A DNA stretch of 25,064 nt from a virus. The notes beneath the pieces were generated by a model, which was not told where the DNA came from, ran no database searches, and worked only from the letters and a program-made list of their open reading frames with translations. Location of the stretch: the IMG/VR virus record IMGVR_UViG_3300020472_000155, positions 1-25,064 of that record, one strand, 5' to 3'. The translations under genes were made by a program, and so were the position numbers. This document shows, piece after piece, positions 4,051-24,830 of the stretch. How positions within the stretch are numbered: the stretch's first letter is position 1; every line of letters begins with the position of its first letter.

Positions 4051-4439
4051 TAGTTTGTATGTGTTACGTTGACGGATAAAGCATGGTGGCAAACATTTTG
4101 ATCTATTTGAGCTAATCTTTGCACATCACCAACTCTACACCTAAAAACTGTTTTGTCTGCACCAGTAAGGTCAGCACTGTCAACAGCTGCTAATAAAGAT
4201 TCCACAAGGGTGACATCTTCTGAGTCAAGATTTTGCCATAAATCAACCTGAATTAACCTCTCTCTAGCAGTGACAACACCATCGCCTGCTAAAGCAACAC
4301 CACGCGCCAGGTCATCTGCGAAAGTAACAAGAGGGAAAGAAGCCGAATCTGGTGCATAATCACGGTACACCTTGTTCGTGATGTTAGTGATATTAGCGTC
4401 AACTATCACTGTTCTCAGGGAAGAAGCTACACTCGCCAT
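4050..4439 (-). CDS. Tail-completion / terminator-like protein (DUF3168-type)
   Basis: 129 residues. The size, the N-terminal helix followed by YRDYAPDSASFPLVTFADD, the central QVDLWQN strand and the position after an HK97 gp10-like gene are those of tail-terminator proteins (DUF3168 / lambda gpU-like), which cap the tail and join it to the head. Translation is tightly linked to the next gene through a TAATG overlap at 4048-4052; the upstream gene's stop lies 3 bases before this start. No enzymatic motif is visible. The family is judged from short motifs and gene order, so a different connector protein is possible. Confidence 0.7.
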   Translation of the reverse strand: MASVASSLRTVIVDANITNITNKVYRDYAPDSASFPLVTFADDLARGVALAGDGVVTARERLIQVDLWQNLDSEDVTLVESLLAAVDSADLTGADKTVFRCRVGDVQRLAQIDQNVCHHALSVNVTHTN

Positions 4440-4442
4440 TGG

Positions 4443-5177
4443 TTATGCCCTACCTCTTTGCGCAAGCACAGCTGCTGGCCCGTGCAGTGGGCTTCTGAAT
4501 CTTTCAGCCCTTATAACCAACCTAGTTGGTGTGCTAGCAAACAACTTTTTAGCTGTTTGTCTTTCATATCTAACAAAATTAATCCTAGTTGTTTTACCTA
4601 TATATCCTTCACCACCAGCAGTGAAATTACCAACAAGGTCTGTACCAATCTTTTTGACCGATGCGGTGGGGCTACTAGCTGTCGCAACATGTCGCCAAAG
4701 AGGACGAGGTGACACACCTCTACCGGAATCCCCTATATAACCAAATTCGAGATCCTTTGAGTAATCTAATGTAGAAAAAACTTCAATGGCTGTTGCGCCG
4801 AAACCTTTCATCAATTTCCCCATTTTCCCAGATCCAGGGGATGCGCCACGAACAGGTAATTGTGACGATATAAACTTTACGCTCCTCTGCAACTTTCCTG
4901 ACTGTTTAGCAGGAGGAGTGCCAGGTTTAGAGGATCTCGTTTTCCCTACTGTCTTATGGACATAAGGGTTTCCCATCTTGCCTGATTCGCCATATCCTGC
5001 TCTAATCCCCTTAGCGTATCTACTCCCTACTAAACGACCAGCTCTTTTTAAACCTAGTCGAGCGCCAGCATTATAAACATTTAAAGCATTAGCTATAATC
5101 ATTTCCTCAATGCTTGCTGGTTTAAGCCCAGCAGGAGTAGGGCATAAAACAACTACGTGTGATTTATTGCCAGCCAT
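4443..5177 (-). CDS. HK97 gp10-like tail-completion protein
   Basis: 244 residues, basic. The hallmark of the gp10 family is visible at about residues 82-101 (SKPGTPPAKQSGKLQRSV) and again at about 140-165, with a YSKDLEFGYIGDSGRG stretch then RPLWRHV, matching the family's 'lE.Gt..aRPfl' motif. These proteins work at the head-tail junction or tail tip during assembly. At 244 residues it is longer than many family members (usually about 120-160), with an extra N-terminal segment and an Arg-rich C-terminal extension. It overlaps the preceding connector gene by one base (TAATG, 5175-5179). Confidence 0.8.
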   Translation of the reverse strand: MAGNKSHVVVLCPTPAGLKPASIEEMIIANALNVYNAGARLGLKRAGRLVGSRYAKGIRAGYGESGKMGNPYVHKTVGKTRSSKPGTPPAKQSGKLQRSVKFISSQLPVRGASPGSGKMGKLMKGFGATAIEVFSTLDYSKDLEFGYIGDSGRGVSPRPLWRHVATASSPTASVKKIGTDLVGNFTAGGEGYIGKTTRINFVRYERQTAKKLFASTPTRLVIRAERFRSPLHGPAAVLAQRGRA

Positions 5178-6089: not shown

Positions 6090-6422
6090 TTAGGCTTCCT
6101 CTCCCTTTTCTAGCATTCTTTTAGCCCGAAGAATAAGTAAACGCTCACGGGTGCTTTTACCACCCCAAATCCCGTAGCGTTCATTATTTTTCAAAGCGTA
6201 CTTAAGACAAGTTACAACTACTGGACAAGTATTGCACATCGCCTTAGCCGCCTTCAGAGCGTCTGTGTCGCCTGGAGAGGGAAAAAATATAGCAGGGTCT
6301 TCCGCTTCGCGACAGGAGCCGTTCTTCTGCCACTCAGGGCGGTCTACGGCGATTATACGATCGTCATTGACCCAACCTGCTGACTCAGCTTTTGGTAAAG
6401 GAGAACTGTCCCGTAATGGCAT
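6090..6422 (-). CDS. WhiB-family Fe-S transcription factor, copy 1
   Basis: 110 residues. Four cysteines ligate the [4Fe-4S] cluster of this family: C37, then C63-x2-C66-x5-C72. GIWGG follows at 84-88, then a basic C-terminal tail (KSTRERLLILRAKR) used for DNA or sigma-factor contacts. All key residues are present, so it should be functional. WhiB proteins bind the primary sigma factor and alter host promoters; phage TM4 WhiB shuts off host whiB2 and causes superinfection exclusion (known of the family). Oddly, it lies inside the structural run between lysin and adaptor. ATG 6422 is forced by an in-frame TGA just before it. No Shine-Dalgarno site is seen, and an inverted repeat covers the upstream region. 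Confidence 0.93.
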   Translation of the reverse strand: MPLRDSSPLPKAESAGWVNDDRIIAVDRPEWQKNGSCREAEDPAIFFPSPGDTDALKAAKAMCNTCPVVVTCLKYALKNNERYGIWGGKSTRERLLILRAKRMLEKGEEA

Positions 6423-17390: not shown

Positions 17391-17693
17391 CTATGAGGAA
17401 GAATATCCATGCCTTTTAAGATTTATTCTTTCTAGCCATGTCAAACCACCCCATATCCCATAATCAAGATCAGCGCCTAAGGCATAATCGAGACATTCTC
17501 TACGGACATGACAATTAGAGCAAATTGCTTTTGCGATTTTGACTTTCGGTTTTGAGCGTATTTCAGGAAAAAAAATGTCAGTATCTAAATCTTTACACTT
17601 AGCTTTTTCCATCCAACCTGTTCGGAGCTTACTGTCTGGTCTACTAAGCCAGTAATTACGCGGATATGTGTGCGGTCTCTCTATGAACTTCAT
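17391..17693 (-). CDS. WhiB-family Fe-S transcription factor, copy 2
   Basis: 100 residues, start ATG 17693 with GGAG 6 nt upstream. Cluster ligands C33, then C58-x2-C61-x5-C67; GIWGG at 79-83; basic end (LERINLKRHGYSSS). All expected residues are present. It differs clearly from copy 1 (different N-terminus and spacing between first and second Cys), so the two probably have separate tasks or timing. It closes a run of small early-type genes and is followed at once by a terminator hairpin. It overlaps the previous gene by 38 bases. Family role: redox-sensing regulator bound to the main sigma factor; target genes unknown. Confidence 0.93.
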   Translation of the reverse strand: MKFIERPHTYPRNYWLSRPDSKLRTGWMEKAKCKDLDTDIFFPEIRSKPKVKIAKAICSNCHVRRECLDYALGADLDYGIWGGLTWLERINLKRHGYSSS

Positions 17694-18939: not shown

Positions 18940-19068
18940 ATGGAAACTACAGAAATTTTGGAGGCAGCAGAAGTTCAATTAGATGGCATCACAGCCGCCT
19001 TAACTTATGTAGAAGACCAACTAGAAGACTTACGTTGTCTTATAACAGATAGAGAAAATAATGCCTGA
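18940..19068 (+). CDS. 42-residue acidic helical protein
   Basis: ATG 18940 preceded by AAAGGA about 7 nt upstream; 42 residues, one amphipathic acidic helix (TTEILEAAEVQLDGITAALT, then YVEDQLEDL). An in-frame ATG at 18889 would add 17 residues but has a poorer ribosome site. The frame ends inside the next gene (8-base overlap), so translation is coupled. First gene of the plus-strand cassette. Function unknown; could be a coiled-coil partner for the membrane protein that follows. Confidence 0.6.
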   Translation: METTEILEAAEVQLDGITAALTYVEDQLEDLRCLITDRENNA

Positions 19069-19498
19069 AGAAAAAAGTGACGCAGAGATACTGACAGAAA
19101 GTCTTATGGAAATACAGGCAACATTAGAAAAAGCCACAGACAAAATGGCTGGCAAAGTCAAAGAAACAATTGATAATACATTAAGCATCTTTGACAAAAT
19201 GAAGGACAACATCGCATGGGTTCTAGGCTTACCAGCAGCTTTCGCAGGATCATTTGGTTTCTTATGGGATTCCAGCAATGACGAAGCAGCCCTTTCTTAT
19301 CAGGTGGAGCAACTCGAAGAAGCAGTTGCCGACCTCCAATCCCAAAACAACCTTCTGGGTGGAGGCACCAAAAACTTTTCGCTTGACATGAGCCAAGCAC
19401 CAGGCGGGTCAGTAACCGTCGTTATTGGTGCTGCTGCAATCGCAGCCCTTATAGGACTGTTGATCTGGTATCAGACTAAGCGCAGACGTAAACGATGA
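19061..19498 (+). CDS. Membrane protein with coiled coil, unknown
   Basis: 145 residues. N-terminal acidic/Lys helix region (1-48), a moderately hydrophobic stretch at 51-69 (AWVLGLPAAFAGSFGFLW), a heptad-like coiled coil at 78-97 (LSYQVEQLEEAVADLQ), then a clear membrane span at 117-136 (VTVVIGAAAIAALIGLL) followed by a KRRRKR tail that should stay in the cytoplasm. Some phage holins or spanins look like this, but no family is recognised. Its stop overlaps the lipoprotein start (ATGA), so the two proteins are probably made together and may work together at the membrane. Confidence 0.7.
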   Translation: MPEEKSDAEILTESLMEIQATLEKATDKMAGKVKETIDNTLSIFDKMKDNIAWVLGLPAAFAGSFGFLWDSSNDEAALSYQVEQLEEAVADLQSQNNLLGGGTKNFSLDMSQAPGGSVTVVIGAAAIAALIGLLIWYQTKRRRKR

Positions 19499-22400
19499 AA
19501 CGGCTCCTAGCGACTTTAGTCGCTGGGACGCTAATAGCGCTCGGTTGCTCAAGTGAAAGCAGTCAAACGGGGGAGAAGGTTGCGGAAACAACCGTGGCCC
19601 CTATCAGTATCCCCCCAAGAGATACAACACAACCTTTAGCAGATCACACCATTGATTATGTACCGAAGGAAGATTCCTTTTCTTTCGAGAACTTTGGTGG
19701 TGGAGAAGCCCCTGCGGATTTAACCGTTAATACCACTAGACGATTGTATGGGGATAGCCAAGTTTGTTCAGATGTAACAGATAATAAATGCACCCCTTAT
19801 CCAGTGATCCTTCAGCTGATAGGTCAAGCGAACCGTTCTATGCAGGGTGGTTTATGCGAAGGGTTAACAGTTCTTTCTTTGCGTTTAGCTAACAACCCTT
19901 CGGTATTAGGGGCATTTCAAAATACGGAAACTGTTGCAGAGCTTGTTAAGGAAGATCCTGCTTTGCTTTCAGAACTTGTTTATTGGTATGTGACCCAGTT
20001 TGCTACGGAAGTTCAAGAACAGGCTTCTGCTTATCTTAAAAAACACCCAGCGCAATTAGCTGAAATTCTACTTCGAGATTTTGAAGCCGCTGAAAGAGGA
20101 GAACCTTCCACGGGTTACACAATAGGTATTTATTCTGAACAGGGTGGTCACGCTGTGACACCTTACCGAGTTGAAGAAACACCAACTGGTTACCGGATTT
20201 ATATTTATGATTCAAACTGGCCCACCGCAGAGCGTTATATAGACGTTGATGGTGAGGGCTGGTCTTATGCTTTAGCGGCAACTAATCCCACAGAAGAAGC
20301 AACAGCATGGGGTGGGGGTAAAGGAACTATGGAGCTGACCCCCATGCAATCAAGGTCAGGGCCATTCTCATGCAGTTTCTGTCCTAGCAACACAGGAGAG
20401 GAATCGGGAACGATGCTCACAGTTGCTTCTTCAGGCAGTAAACAAATGGCTCTCAAAATTGAGACAGAAAGCGGTGATCGTCTCGGCTATTACGATGGCA
20501 AGTTTGTTAACGAGATAGAAGGAGCTACTTACAGGTATTTAATATCTGGCCCTTCAACAGCTGACCCAGTGTTAGTTTTCCTTCCGCCCAATATAGAAAC
20601 TTTCAGCGCTGATGTGGAAGAAATAGATGTTCCCACCCCAGAAAAATCAGACTCAGCCGTCAATACCAGTACAACTTTACTGGAGCAGGAACAGGATGAG
20701 CCTACCCAAGAAAAATTCTCTTTACTGCTACTGAATGAAGAAAAATCTGTTCAAGTAGAAGCTGCGATACAAGAAGAACCTGAACCAGCACCAGCAGGGA
20801 CGGGAGATCCAATGTCCCCCCTCCAAGCTGAACCAGAGATACCAACTGCTTCACTTATCTCTTTTTCAGAAGACAGTATTGGCATTGCAGAAGTAGAAGA
20901 TGCAACTGTGGCTATTGCTATTGATGCCTTAGAAGTAGAAATACCATTAGAGAGTGGGCAAGTAATAGAAGTGGTCGTAGCCCCAGACCCTGAACCGGCA
21001 CCTGACACGGAAGTGGGGGCTGAAGTCCCCCCTCCAACCATGCTTGATATTGCTATTGAAGACACCAGTGGTGAGGTTTTAGCTGAGGTAGAAGTGGATT
21101 TAACCGACTACCTAGTTGAAGAAGAACCAGCTGAACAGGAGGTCGTCCCACCGTCGCAGGGGGATACCCCACCACCAGAATTAGAAGAAGAGCCCCCTCC
21201 AGCAGCTCCAGTAGTCATTCAGATCATATTTGATGAAGAAGCAGGCGAAGTCATTCTTGAAGAAGAGGAAGTTGAAGCTTGGGTAGCATCAGACGCAGAA
21301 TATTTCCAAGCAATCGCTGAAGATCGTCTTGAAGAAGTGCTGGGTGAATCTTACGCAGAGGAAATCATTGAACGTGAAGAGTGGGTTGAAGAAGAACTCT
21401 TTGAAGAAGAATTTGATCTTTTAGAAATCATTCTTAATGTTGATGAAGAATATTGGGAAGACGAAATCTGGGAAGAAGTTTCTTACGACGACGAATGGTT
21501 TGAAGAAGAAGCGGAAATCCACGCCACCATGTACGCAATAGTTGAAGACATTGATGAGTGGTTTGAAGAAGAAGCATGGGAACCAGAAGAAGAATGGATT
21601 CAGGACTGGGCAGAGGAAGAAGAAGCATGGGTTCTTGAAGAATTCGGTCTTGAAGAATGGAACGAAGAACTCATGGGGCCAAACCCCTTAGAGACTATGG
21701 ACTGGACTGAAGACGACTGGGAAGCCTACGACGAGGAAATGGACGCTATCTGGGAAGAACAGATGGAAGACCCAGAAATGTTTCAAGAGTCTCTCTTAGA
21801 AGAACTTGATATGGAGGAGTGGGATGACAGTTGGGGGCCAAGCCCAACAGAGTCTTTTGACTGGACTGAAGAAGATTGGGAAGAGTTCGATGCCCAACAA
21901 GAGGCACTGTGGGAAGAAGAAGAGTTCTGGGAAGAAGAAGAATTTTGGGAAGAAGAAGAGTTAGAAGTTTGGGAAATAGACCCATTCCTTGACACAGAAG
22001 AAGAATGGGACGAATGGGAAGAAGAGTTCTGGCCAGAAGACATGGAATGGGAAGACGAATGGACAGAAGAATGGATAGAAGACGAAGAATTAGACCTTAG
22101 CTGGCTTTTAGAGATAGAGATTGATGATTGGGATGAAGATGAATGGGGGCCACACCCAACCACAACAATCGACTGGACAGACGACGACTGGGACATTTAC
22201 GAAGAAGAACAATCGGGTGAATTCGACGAAGAATGGGAAGTCTGGGAAGAAGAAGAATGGACAGAAGATGATTGGGATGAAGAGGAATGGACAGAAGAAT
22301 TAGAAATCTGGGAAGAAGAAATAGACTATGATGACTGGCATGAAGAAGAAGAAGAAACCCCACAATATGAAGAAGAAGCATGGGAGGACTACCCCGAAGA

Positions 22401-23418
22401 AGAGGAATGGGATAACCCCTACGCTGATTGTATAGGCACTTCAGCTTGCACTGATGCCCCTGCCGGATTTGATGATTGGGCTCAATGGGAATCAGCTAAT
22501 AACCCTAACTATGTAGCGCCTGAAGTCGGCGATCCTGATTATGTCCCTCCTCCACCTCCTCCACCTGTTTACGTGCCTACATTTTGGGCATATACCGAAG
22601 CCCTAATCACTCAAAGACACAACGACAGTAGCGAGTCAACTGTTACGACTGTGTTAGCAAGAGGCACAGACGGGCATTGGTATGAGACACACACGACTGA
22701 AACGACAACTACGACAACCACTTATACGACCAACGGTACAGAACAATACGGTTGTGTAGATAATGCCTGTGTTGTTAACGGTACAACTTGGGGAGAGGAA
22801 ACAAGCGCTCAAACTGTAGCGGTAACAACTGCAACCGAAGTTGTCCCTGCATCTTGCTCTCAAGGTGGTTGGACAGGCTTAGGCGACTGGTGCATAGTTG
22901 ATTCCAGTAGCCGAAACGATTACGACCATGTTGCTTTCTCAGTGCCTACCGCCGCTGAAGAAAACGCAGCGTGTAACTGTACTGATGGTGATGGGCTTAT
23001 GGATATTCGTATTGACGCTGAAAGTAATTTGACTCGCTCTCAGTTCGGTCAAAACAATGAACACGCTGACCCTTACATCTACCTGAACCACGACACAAAC
23101 GCCGATGACGGCGATCATTCAGGAGACATGGATGGTATAACGGTTGGTAATCTAATTCAGCAAAACGATGACAGTGGTAGAGATTGTGGGAGTCATTGCA
23201 ACAACCCTCCTAGCACTGCAACAGACCCCGATGAAACACCAAACGTCACACTTACTAACGGCGACCCAGTAATAGAAAACGTCGCAGATTCATGGGACTC
23301 TCGTATAACAAGAGAACTCTCAGCAGGCGATTACGTGGTGCGTGGTTCGGTGTATAATAATGCTAATGGGGGTTGGTATAGATTGACAATTAGAGATGCG
23401 GATGTGACTTACCCATGA
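19495..23418 (+). CDS. Giant Glu/Trp-rich lipoprotein with papain-like domain
   Basis: 1307 residues. Lipoprotein signal: basic start, hydrophobic core, lipobox ALGC with lipidation Cys18, so exported and membrane-anchored. Residues about 80-290 look like a papain-like domain: GGLCEGLTVL with candidate Cys121, GGHAVTPYRV with His219, and IYIYDSNWP with Asp239; protease or inactive binding fold cannot be decided. Residues about 370-580 are a Pro/Glu linker. Residues about 583-975 are almost entirely Glu, Asp and aromatic, with about 42 Trp by my count and only two Arg and no Lys. It contains diverged units starting [WM]GPxP...DWT spaced about 53 codons. A Cys-containing part and PPPPPPP linker follow, then Thr-rich sequence and a PPC-like C-terminal domain (DPYIYL, WDSRITRELSAGDYVV, GGWYRLTI). 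Possible roles include surface binding or superinfection exclusion. Coupled to neighbours by ATGA at both ends. Confidence 0.9.
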   Translation: MKRLLATLVAGTLIALGCSSESSQTGEKVAETTVAPISIPPRDTTQPLADHTIDYVPKEDSFSFENFGGGEAPADLTVNTTRRLYGDSQVCSDVTDNKCTPYPVILQLIGQANRSMQGGLCEGLTVLSLRLANNPSVLGAFQNTETVAELVKEDPALLSELVYWYVTQFATEVQEQASAYLKKHPAQLAEILLRDFEAAERGEPSTGYTIGIYSEQGGHAVTPYRVEETPTGYRIYIYDSNWPTAERYIDVDGEGWSYALAATNPTEEATAWGGGKGTMELTPMQSRSGPFSCSFCPSNTGEESGTMLTVASSGSKQMALKIETESGDRLGYYDGKFVNEIEGATYRYLISGPSTADPVLVFLPPNIETFSADVEEIDVPTPEKSDSAVNTSTTLLEQEQDEPTQEKFSLLLLNEEKSVQVEAAIQEEPEPAPAGTGDPMSPLQAEPEIPTASLISFSEDSIGIAEVEDATVAIAIDALEVEIPLESGQVIEVVVAPDPEPAPDTEVGAEVPPPTMLDIAIEDTSGEVLAEVEVDLTDYLVEEEPAEQEVVPPSQGDTPPPELEEEPPPAAPVVIQIIFDEEAGEVILEEEEVEAWVASDAEYFQAIAEDRLEEVLGESYAEEIIEREEWVEEELFEEEFDLLEIILNVDEEYWEDEIWEEVSYDDEWFEEEAEIHATMYAIVEDIDEWFEEEAWEPEEEWIQDWAEEEEAWVLEEFGLEEWNEELMGPNPLETMDWTEDDWEAYDEEMDAIWEEQMEDPEMFQESLLEELDMEEWDDSWGPSPTESFDWTEEDWEEFDAQQEALWEEEEFWEEEEFWEEEELEVWEIDPFLDTEEEWDEWEEEFWPEDMEWEDEWTEEWIEDEELDLSWLLEIEIDDWDEDEWGPHPTTTIDWTDDDWDIYEEEQSGEFDEEWEVWEEEEWTEDDWDEEEWTEELEIWEEEIDYDDWHEEEEETPQYEEEAWEDYPEEEEWDNPYADCIGTSACTDAPAGFDDWAQWESANNPNYVAPEVGDPDYVPPPPPPPVYVPTFWAYTEALITQRHNDSSESTVTTVLARGTDGHWYETHTTETTTTTTTYTTNGTEQYGCVDNACVVNGTTWGEETSAQTVAVTTATEVVPASCSQGGWTGLGDWCIVDSSSRNDYDHVAFSVPTAAEENAACNCTDGDGLMDIRIDAESNLTRSQFGQNNEHADPYIYLNHDTNADDGDHSGDMDGITVGNLIQQNDDSGRDCGSHCNNPPSTATDPDETPNVTLTNGDPVIENVADSWDSRITRELSAGDYVVRGSVYNNANGGWYRLTIRDADVTYP
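21673..22240 (+). repeat. Diverged protein repeat in Glu/Trp region
   Basis: Three copies of a unit starting GPNPLETMDWT, GPSPTESFDWT and GPHPTTTIDWT, each followed by an acidic EDDW/DDDW stretch, start near 21673, 21832 and 22144. The gaps are 159 and 312 bases (53 codons, and twice 52). A worn copy probably lies between the last two, around 21985 (DPFLDTEEEWDEW). Confidence 0.65.
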
Positions 23419-23684
23419 AACCAAATGAATTATCAGGAATGAAAGTGTGGATAGACCAAGACCTTTGTACAGGTGATGGGTTATGCGAAGAAATAGCACC
23501 CTCAGTGTTCTTCGGGCATTCCGATGGTCTTTTCTACGTCAAAGAAGATGGCTCTGAAACACCGAAAGAACCAACTCACAAGATGAGTGAAATGGTTGAG
23601 GTTAAGCCTGAGAATGTTGAAGCAGTAATCGAAGCTGCGGATGAATGTCCAGGGGAGTGCATCTTCCTGCATGTTGGGGATTGA
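23415..23684 (+). CDS. One-cluster ferredoxin (3Fe-4S or Asp-ligated 4Fe-4S)
   Basis: 89 residues. C18-x5-C24 (CTGDGLC) and a later C78-P-x2-C82 (DECPGEC) match single-cluster bacterial ferredoxins with IAPSVFFGHSDGLFYV and the CP-type end. Asp21 stands at the position of the missing second cysteine, as in Pyrococcus furiosus ferredoxin and actinobacterial P450-partner ferredoxins, so the cluster may be 3Fe-4S or Asp-ligated 4Fe-4S. It transfers single electrons. Partner unknown; no oxidoreductase lies next to it. The start overlaps the lipoprotein stop (ATGA 23415-23418). Some cytosolic step linked to the cassette is implied, as this protein has no signal peptide. Confidence 0.87.
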   Translation: MKPNELSGMKVWIDQDLCTGDGLCEEIAPSVFFGHSDGLFYVKEDGSETPKEPTHKMSEMVEVKPENVEAVIEAADECPGECIFLHVGD

Positions 23685-23699: not shown

Positions 23700-24071
23700 A
23701 TGAGCGCAGATAACTTATTTCATTACCGATCTACAGTAACCAAAGTCGTTGACGGTGACACAATAGATGTTGACCTCGACCTTGGGTTTGACATCAAATA
23801 CCATGTGCGAATCCGGTTGGTGGGTATTAACACCCCAGAATCACGCACAAGAGACCTTGAGGAAAAGGAGCGTGGTTTAGCTGCTAAGGACTTTGTTGGT
23901 CGGTGGTTGCTAGAAGAAGCCGGAATGAACCCTGTGATACAAACATCGTTGGACGACAGGGGTAAATTTGGTCGTGTCTTAGGGAAAGTTTTAACTAAAG
24001 ATGGTGTTTGTTTAAATGACGTTCTTATTGAAGAAGGTCACGCTGTTGCTTACGACGGAGGTAAACGGTAA
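23700..24071 (+). CDS. Staphylococcal-nuclease-like nuclease (SNase)
   Basis: 123 residues. VVDGDTIDVDLDLGF (16-30) and VRIRLVGINTPESRT (36-50) contain the family's calcium-binding aspartates (D18/D20, D40 equivalents are near) and the Arg39/Glu47 pair; GRVLG with Arg92 and LNDVLIEEGHAVAYDGG complete the fold. All expected catalytic residues are present. The enzyme cuts DNA or RNA using Ca2+. There is no signal peptide, so it acts in the cytoplasm, perhaps in host DNA breakdown. Its 3' end overlaps the small minus-strand gene at 24025-24186 by 47 bases. Confidence 0.9.
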   Translation: MSADNLFHYRSTVTKVVDGDTIDVDLDLGFDIKYHVRIRLVGINTPESRTRDLEEKERGLAAKDFVGRWLLEEAGMNPVIQTSLDDRGKFGRVLGKVLTKDGVCLNDVLIEEGHAVAYDGGKR

Positions 24072-24186
24072 GCGTTTCTTCAGCGAGACATGCTTCTAAA
24101 AATTCACAGAAGCTAACACCCCATCCTTTGCCATGAAACTCTTTAATGTAGGTGTGCTTTTGGTCTTTGACCCTAAAACTAATCAC
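24025..24186 (-). CDS. 53-residue protein coupled to Mom-like gene
   Basis: GTG 24186 overlaps the Mom-like stop as GTGA, with AAGGAGG 4 nt before. 53 residues: MISFRVKDQKHTYIKEFHGKGWG, then SFCEFLEACLAEETLTVYL and a basic end. Two Cys. No family recognised. It is supported by a strong ribosome site, the coupling and protein-like composition, but it overlaps the nuclease gene antisense by 47 bases. Might assist or regulate the modification enzyme. Confidence 0.6.
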   Translation of the reverse strand: MISFRVKDQKHTYIKEFHGKGWGVSFCEFLEACLAEETLTVYLRRKQQRDLLQ

Positions 24187-24830
24187 TCGCCCTCCTTGAA
24201 TAAAACAGCCTGAACATCAGGTTCATAAGAAGCGTCATAACGCTTATTGTCACCTTTAGGATAAGGCTCAACAGGGTAATTTAACTGCTTACTCCATTTT
24301 TTACGCTGGTCTTTAGTGCCAGTGAAATAAATATATCTGTATTTACTACTACGGAACTTTCTGTTCTTGGAGTAATCCAACCCTTTGTCATAATGTCTAC
24401 TATGAGTGCCGTCTTCTGACCCGATGTCAGTACGTGCCTTAGTAGCACCTGTGTAAATCCAATTAGTAGCCTGATAAATGTACCCATGATGGTTTTGCGC
24501 CGAGTCAGCATAACTGACCAATATCAGAGGAGGTAAGAGAGACAAGACTTTACCCACGAAAAAAGATAAAGCATTTTTAGGCAGACCATCATTCACGCAA
24601 AGCCTGTTCAATTCATAAACAAACTTAGAATTCTTTTCTCCACACACACCTTTGCATAATGATGGAGATGCAGGCTTACCTATTGTGCAGATCCCCACCA
24701 TAACGGTGTCCTCAAACAAACCATAGGCAAAAGAAATACTGGGTAGACGTTTAGCGTAATGCTTGTTGAGTATCCAATCGTGGGTGCTAGAAGATTCTAT
24801 TGCAGAAACCGAATAGGTGTCTTCAATCAT
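24183..24830 (-). CDS. mom: Mom-like DNA adenine-modification protein
   Basis: 215 residues. Key stretches agree with phage Mu Mom and its phage relatives: NKHYAKRLPSISFAYGLFED (22-41), VGICTIGKP, YELNRLCVNDGLPKNALSFFVGKVL, ILVSYADSAQNHHGYIYQATNWIYTG and the C-terminal YRYIYF. Mom converts adenine in DNA to N6-(methylcarbamoyl)adenine and so protects phage DNA from many restriction enzymes (known for Mu). The fold is an acyltransferase-like (GNAT-related) one. No com-like translational activator is seen next to it. It overlaps the upstream partial gene by 8 bases and the downstream 53-residue gene by 4. The match is from memory of motifs. Confidence 0.8.
   Translation of the reverse strand: MIEDTYSVSAIESSSTHDWILNKHYAKRLPSISFAYGLFEDTVMVGICTIGKPASPSLCKGVCGEKNSKFVYELNRLCVNDGLPKNALSFFVGKVLSLLPPLILVSYADSAQNHHGYIYQATNWIYTGATKARTDIGSEDGTHSRHYDKGLDYSKNRKFRSSKYRYIYFTGTKDQRKKWSKQLNYPVEPYPKGDNKRYDASYEPDVQAVLFKEGE

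Follow-up and report, generated by a model that had tools for sequence, protein, structure and literature searches.

What a phage gains from encoding a lipoprotein of more than a thousand residues is the question raised by the window, meaning the whole 25,064-nucleotide stretch analysed here (positions 1 to 25,064 of the IMG/VR virus record IMGVR_UViG_3300020472_000155). This virus fragment carries portal, prohead protease, capsid and tail-fibre-like genes on the strand opposite to the lipoprotein gene, and the adjoining portal, capsid and terminase genes rule out cellular contamination. The first-pass annotation had described the lipoprotein from the letters and their open reading frames, overlooking its cellular homologues, an obligate partner gene, the variability of its acidic tract and the lysis genes beside many relatives. 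With the partner gene, the feature reaches upstream to 19061, beyond the limits given earlier. The explanation tentatively preferred here is that the two genes would form an envelope-acting module of marine actinobacteriophages, most likely used at lysis or release. The lipoprotein is laid out as follows:

19495..23418, plus strand: giant lipoprotein gene, 1307 aa in 1307 open codons, its start overlapping the stop of the partner gene (ATGA)
19495..19548, plus strand: lipoprotein signal peptide with lipobox ALGC and Cys18, from the lipobox pattern across relatives
19669..20424, plus strand: CHD head domain, from the viral and cellular alignment and AF2
19855-19857, 20149-20151, 20209-20211 and 20215-20217, plus strand: codons of head residues Cys121, His219, Asp239 and Asn241
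20425..21240, plus strand: middle region, beta-rich, partly acidic and Pro-rich, from AF2 strands
21241..22419, plus strand: Glu/Asp/Trp tract, residues 583-975, from composition and repeats
22420..22578, plus strand: short Cys-pair/Pro-rich segment (DCIGTSAC...PPPPPPP) in the translation, with C.GTSAC also in relatives
22579..22851, plus strand: Thr-rich part with three beta strands of about 27 residues in the model (AF2 pLDDT mostly 89-97 over the strands)
22852..23415, plus strand: C-terminal PPC domain, from Foldseek against PDB

The annotated giant phage lipoprotein is borne out by the open frame and by the lipobox, which almost every viral relative with an intact 5' end has, as do most of the cellular relatives read. 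The protein, with a net charge of -303, is predicted to have a lipid anchor at Cys18 that fixes it to the outside of the cytoplasmic membrane. Its reading frame is kept in relatives, which together with the dN/dS values rules out an ORF arising by chance or as a frame artefact. These values are 0.035 for the head against the nearest relative, 0.12 for the middle region against L002 and 0.04-0.06 for the PPC part against relatives other than the nearest, and they point to strong purifying selection on the head and its triad. The tract gives 0.28 against the nearest relative and 0.15-0.24 in others with unsaturated dS, so the frame through it is also under selection, though loosely. AF2 confidence in the middle region is 38-89 by block. 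In L055, positions 4253-5170 hold a Met/Thr-rich stretch within the lipoprotein ORF that looks out of frame, a possible compensated frameshift.

Both ends of the lipoprotein gave zero matches by tblastn among 50,697 phage records, and targeted literature searches of open-licence papers returned no description of the layout. The earlier statement that no described family has such a layout agrees with the libraries searched (Pfam, NCBIfam, PHROGs, PADLOC and PDB), in which profile searches with the head found no relevant match. The search of viral sequences for relatives, which had been proposed at that stage, recovered the head domain in 73 viral loci at 53-94% identity.

The set Cys121/His219/Asp239, picked out beforehand as a candidate triad, is present, and the Cys, His, Asp and Asn positions do not vary in any of the 68 complete viral rows or the 31 complete cellular rows; in the myxococcal paralogue L197, which lies outside those 31 rows, Ser replaces the Cys of the triad. 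The AF2 model of residues 49-700 (mean pLDDT 73.9, pTM 0.76; mostly 75-94 over the enzyme-like core of the head) places Cys121 directly before a helix and the other two on consecutive strands, His219 within the first and Asp239 at the end of the second, a modelled sequence that matches the usual order in papain-like enzymes. The Cys-His-Asp/Asn order with Cys at a helix N-terminus is that of C1/C39-type peptidases. The papain-like character proposed in the first-pass annotation thus stands for motif and order, the papain fold itself being a candidate only, as Foldseek found no match at E<=1e-3 in PDB and BFVD with the 652-residue multi-domain model as query, and known peptidase profiles gave no match to the head. 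The Foldseek listings for this N-terminal model were discarded as noise, with TM-scores near 0.1. 'Papain-like' appears a reasonable working label, and the head may be described as a candidate thiol hydrolase or transferase near the membrane. The invariant triad and the low dN/dS of the head argue for the exit role, whereas the candidate status of the enzyme and the Ser-for-Cys paralogue argue against it.

The relatives of the head extend into bacteria. A GTDB scan with the viral head alignment found 14 non-viral relatives, mostly in Acidimicrobiia MAGs, with one myxococcal and one deltaproteobacterial, and class surveys found the head family in 14 of 296 Acidimicrobiia genomes and 7 of 141 Myxococcota genomes, with up to five copies per genome. 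Most of the cellular proteins read are lipoproteins by their N-terminus. They combine a lipobox with the same head of about 250 residues (E to 1e-70) and have in common with the viral proteins the motifs C..C, GxCEG, GGHAVTPY, YDxNWPG, W and, mostly, CxFC, from which viral and bacterial heads are judged to be of common ancestry. The bacterial proteins differ in size (roughly 550-700 aa in the closest, some much longer, against 1307 aa for the viral one) and in their tails, which are Thr/Pro repeats or Cys-rich repeat stretches without an acidic Trp tract; they have no recognised PPC tail and no two-TM partner. The analysis thereby defines a family of lipoproteins, in Acidimicrobiia and Myxococcota, that is undescribed and has no name in the libraries searched; by its sequence the viral head belongs to it. 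In the heads of the family's bacterial sequences (L086-L118 and L192-L197) the Cys-His-Asp-Asn set hardly varies. The viral sequences form a single clade, with support of 100/99, in a tree of 39 heads, so the simplest reading of the origin of the viral head would be a single capture or a shared source. Four MAG contigs titled Bifidobacterium breve (L088, L091, L096 and L098) encode CHD proteins resembling those of Acidimicrobiia and are probably mislabelled records.

Behind the head and middle region, the composition claimed for the acidic tract was reproduced: 393 residues with 42 Trp, 141 Glu, 47 Asp (188 D+E) and 2 Lys+Arg, for a net charge of -186. Three degenerate units of the form GP.P.E..DWTE.DW..YDEE occur here, and across relatives the tract is 148-616 aa long, a unit like EEWPEDWGPSPSESWDWTEDEWQAFDEE recurs in it 0-7 times, and Lys/Arg make up 0-3.4%. 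In L050 a Pro/Thr repeat occupies part of it. The length range and the repeats of L050 rule out the tract as the functional core, and it is probably best seen as a variable stalk; an acidic-aromatic patch at its start, YWEDE.W....YDDEWFEE, persists even in relatives with a short tract.

The PPC-like end was recovered by structure. In the AF2 model of residues 1010-1307 (pLDDT 82.6), Foldseek against PDB matched a collagenase PPC domain, 5sv5 (prob 1.00; TM-score by target 0.70), and the PPC domains of ColG and ColH (prob 1.00; ColG domain 3b with a TM-score up to 0.73), so that the beta-sandwich is supported at prob 1.00 with TM-scores by target of 0.60-0.73. Multi-domain beta proteins with the best C-terminal E-values were set aside as chance pairings of long strands (TM about 0.2, rmsd about 25 A). 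The Pfam PPC profile (PF04151) matched neither the window sequence nor the C-terminal alignment, and the relative L053 passes NF038127 of the DVUA0089 family (47.3 bits against a cut-off of 29). This part was found in 10 viral loci. Unlike in the collagenases, the fold is here carried on a phage lipoprotein. Collagenase PPC domains bind Ca2+ and substrates, which, with an extreme acidity suited to cation binding and a variable tract length, could speak for a lysogenic-conversion or fitness moron whose lipoprotein alters how the infected cell adheres, binds metal or resists grazing. The late-gene neighbourhood described below, with no integrase noted beside the pair, weighs against this explanation, which has a low probability.

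The second gene of the module, directly upstream of the lipoprotein gene in a conserved pairing, and a possible third are:

19061..19498, plus strand: partner gene, encoding a 145-aa membrane protein
19352..19411, plus strand: conserved extracytoplasmic loop of the partner, LLGGGTKNFSLDMSQAPGGS, with invariant residues
18889..19068, plus strand: short ORF of 59 aa from ORF calling, overlapping the partner start

By hydropathy the partner has a clear transmembrane segment at 117-135 and a marginal one at 50-68, separated by a coiled-coil-like stretch, and it ends in a C-terminal KRRRKR. Since this basic end follows the strongest segment, the C-terminus is predicted to lie inside the cytoplasm. 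Residues L98, L99, G100, G101, N105 and G116 are invariant in 25 sequences, the invariant residues clustering in TM1 and the LLGG loop. An alignment scan found the partner in 108 marine viral contigs; it lies directly upstream of the lipoprotein gene in 71 viral loci and is present in 18 of 18 large records. Among 80 retained partner loci, 78 carry the lipoprotein and the remaining two end at a contig edge 150 nt further on, and from this the two genes are taken to be an obligate pair. They overlap by 4 nt in 34 of 65 loci and are spaced by -28 to +6 nt in the rest, and their partner and head distances correlate (r=0.81, 0/2000 permutations), with phage relatedness contributing. Obligate pairing, overlap or near-overlap in every measured locus and this correlation all argue for joint action at exit. 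In profile searches the partner scores weakly against Rz-like spanins (E 5e-4) and a phage hemolysin family (E 1.5e-4), and this adds to the case for exit; coiled-coil composition can explain such scores, however, which counts against the same role. Similar short ORFs precede the pair in L003 and L009, and the 59-aa ORF is possibly, on weak grounds, the first gene of an operon.

The loop also raises the possibility that the partner is a substrate: the CHD head, on the same membrane face, would cut or modify the LLGG...APGGS loop, a switch that would govern surface attachment or the timing of lysis and could serve as the mechanism of either an exit role or exclusion. Papain-like C39 peptidases cut after a double glycine, and the obligate pairing, the place of the loop among the partner's most conserved parts and the selection on the triad are in keeping with such a switch. 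The bacterial homologues, however, retain the triad while the partner had no match in 296 Acidimicrobiia genomes, the class to which they belong (a set without a positive control), and the double-glycine consensus is matched at -1, -2 and -4 only. The enzyme-substrate relation is accordingly improbable, if somewhat less so than the fitness moron.

The genes around the pair bear on host and on time of expression:

23415..23684, plus strand: ferredoxin gene (4Fe-4S, Fer4_15; PF13459, 2e-16), overlapping the lipoprotein stop
23700..24071, plus strand: SNase-like nuclease gene, a frequent neighbour (PF00565, phrog_452)
24183-24830, minus strand: Mom-like DNA modification protein at the window edge (PF25680, 5e-35)
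6090-6422 and 17391-17693, minus strand: two WhiB-like genes, named by eye, whose counterparts in G001 pass the WhiB cut-off

WhiB occurs in 17 of 26 records from several phage types and, in a control set of 14 genomes, was matched only in Corynebacterium. Together with the head relatives in Acidimicrobiia this points to actinobacteria as the phage hosts, which also favours the exit role as formulated above. WhiB has also been reported in phages of Actinomarinales (PMC7771536, PMC3861242). The ferredoxin gene lies 3' of the pair in several phage types and is frequent rather than constant. The pair itself is constant while its flanking genes differ between phage types, which have two terminase types and different portals.

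Late genes surround the pair, with tail-fibre assembly genes, terminase or portal beside it, and this late position supports an exit role, though any late moron could occupy such positions. The adjoining tail-fibre, portal or terminase genes of many loci are also what would be expected of a virion component, acting in adsorption or as an internal protein despite its lipobox. With the lipobox kept across the family, bacterial homologues that are lipoproteins and no virion-protein family matched in the profile searches, this is very improbable, the least probable of the readings weighed.

The arrangement recalls two-component spanins, for which the definition was taken from PMC6139136. As in Rz/Rz1, a membrane protein with an extracytoplasmic coiled coil is followed by an overlapping or adjoining lipoprotein gene, with lysis neighbours in a subset of loci. 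In contrast to Rz, which as an i-spanin would have an N-terminal transmembrane segment and a periplasmic C-terminal part, the partner is predicted from hydropathy to return to the cytoplasm through a second segment, and the lipoprotein is many times larger than Rz1, with a catalytic-type domain. The hosts here, placed by WhiB and the Acidimicrobiia relatives, are probably actinobacterial, and an outer membrane is not expected in them; to our knowledge none is known from actinobacterial hosts of this class, so a strict spanin role makes no sense. The pair was for these reasons rejected as a spanin by definition.

Lysis genes adjoin the pair in a subset of loci, which argues for exit. An r1t holin, identified by PF16945 and phrog_443, precedes the partner at a distance of 26-92 nt in 15 of about 70 non-redundant loci, which are mutually dependent fragments and are counted as loci rather than independent events, and within 2 kb in three more. 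The L048-type order is endolysin, PG-binding protein, holin, partner and lipoprotein, and an endolysin-like gene follows the lipoprotein in L021, L055, L056 and L059. Against an exit role, most loci have the pair without adjoining lysis genes. This includes G001, the closest large genome and of the window's phage type, in which an amidase and an r1t-like holin ORF (by eye) lie far from the pair; G013 (44 kb) has the pair behind its terminase gene and the holin-amidase genes about 17 kb off. The two-TM partner as sole holin was judged unlikely, as r1t-type holins coexist with it in several phage types. L119, from the genome of a close relative of the window's phage, has by eye a small XhlA-like ORF (5-205) followed by an r1t-type holin ORF (353-568).

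The main competitor is superinfection exclusion, with the displayed lipoprotein and its partner blocking, masking or cleaving the phage receptor on infected cells and debris; the head would imitate a surface lipoprotein of the host or compete with it, and a net charge of about -300 would act as a repelling brush. It has been described that T5 Llp blocks FhuA and that exclusion also stops adsorption to lysed fragments (PMC9586334). Like Llp and TP-J34 Ltp, the protein is phage-encoded, has a lipobox and is presumed to be displayed in the envelope of the infected cell, and its variable tails, the head in common with bacterial lipoproteins, moron-like placement at unrelated genome positions and a membrane protein-lipoprotein combination that recalls plasmid exclusion pairs would all suit exclusion. 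Searches of Pfam, NCBIfam and PHROGs showed no similarity to Llp or Ltp. Known exclusion lipoproteins are small, with Llp an early product (PMC9586334), whereas this one is far larger, has an obligate partner and lies among late genes, often beside a holin or endolysin, and no receptor is known. Exclusion is on this evidence possible but rather unlikely. Of the functions guessed at in the first-pass annotation, surface processing fits equally as well as receptor blocking.

Under the preferred exit role, the partner's extracytoplasmic loop would hold the lipoprotein, itself anchored through Cys18 on the outside of the cytoplasmic membrane, and the head would act near the membrane, as thiol hydrolase or transferase, on the surface material on which its bacterial relatives act. 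The long acidic, Trp-rich stalk would take the PPC tip out through the wall. At exit, the module would aid holin and endolysin in opening the envelope, or clear the surface so that released virions do not stick, making the pair somewhat like a spanin pair in its membrane coiled coil, lipoprotein and overlapping genes, yet not one. A bacterial surface enzyme captured once, lipid-anchored, fitted with a variable acidic Trp stalk and PPC tip, and processing or working through a dedicated membrane protein so that virions are freed from cells that have no outer membrane, is a possible but doubtful account.

Actinophages have additional lysis membrane proteins, LysZ in corynephages and LysF1a/b in mycobacteriophages, which are thought to handle the envelope or its opening (PMC13056207). 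Compared by description only, these differ from the present pair in having no lipoprotein partner, and LysZ and LysF1b have one transmembrane segment. If the exit role is true, a lipoprotein-based, enzyme-bearing part would be added to the ways in which phages handle envelopes without an outer membrane. We know of nothing spanin-like beyond LysZ for such cells. The actinobacterial hosts of the phages carrying the pair would be mostly uncultured. The viral pair is also present on a Phycisphaerae MAG contig, L085 (JASLZV010000272.1), which is probably a phage contig in the bin.
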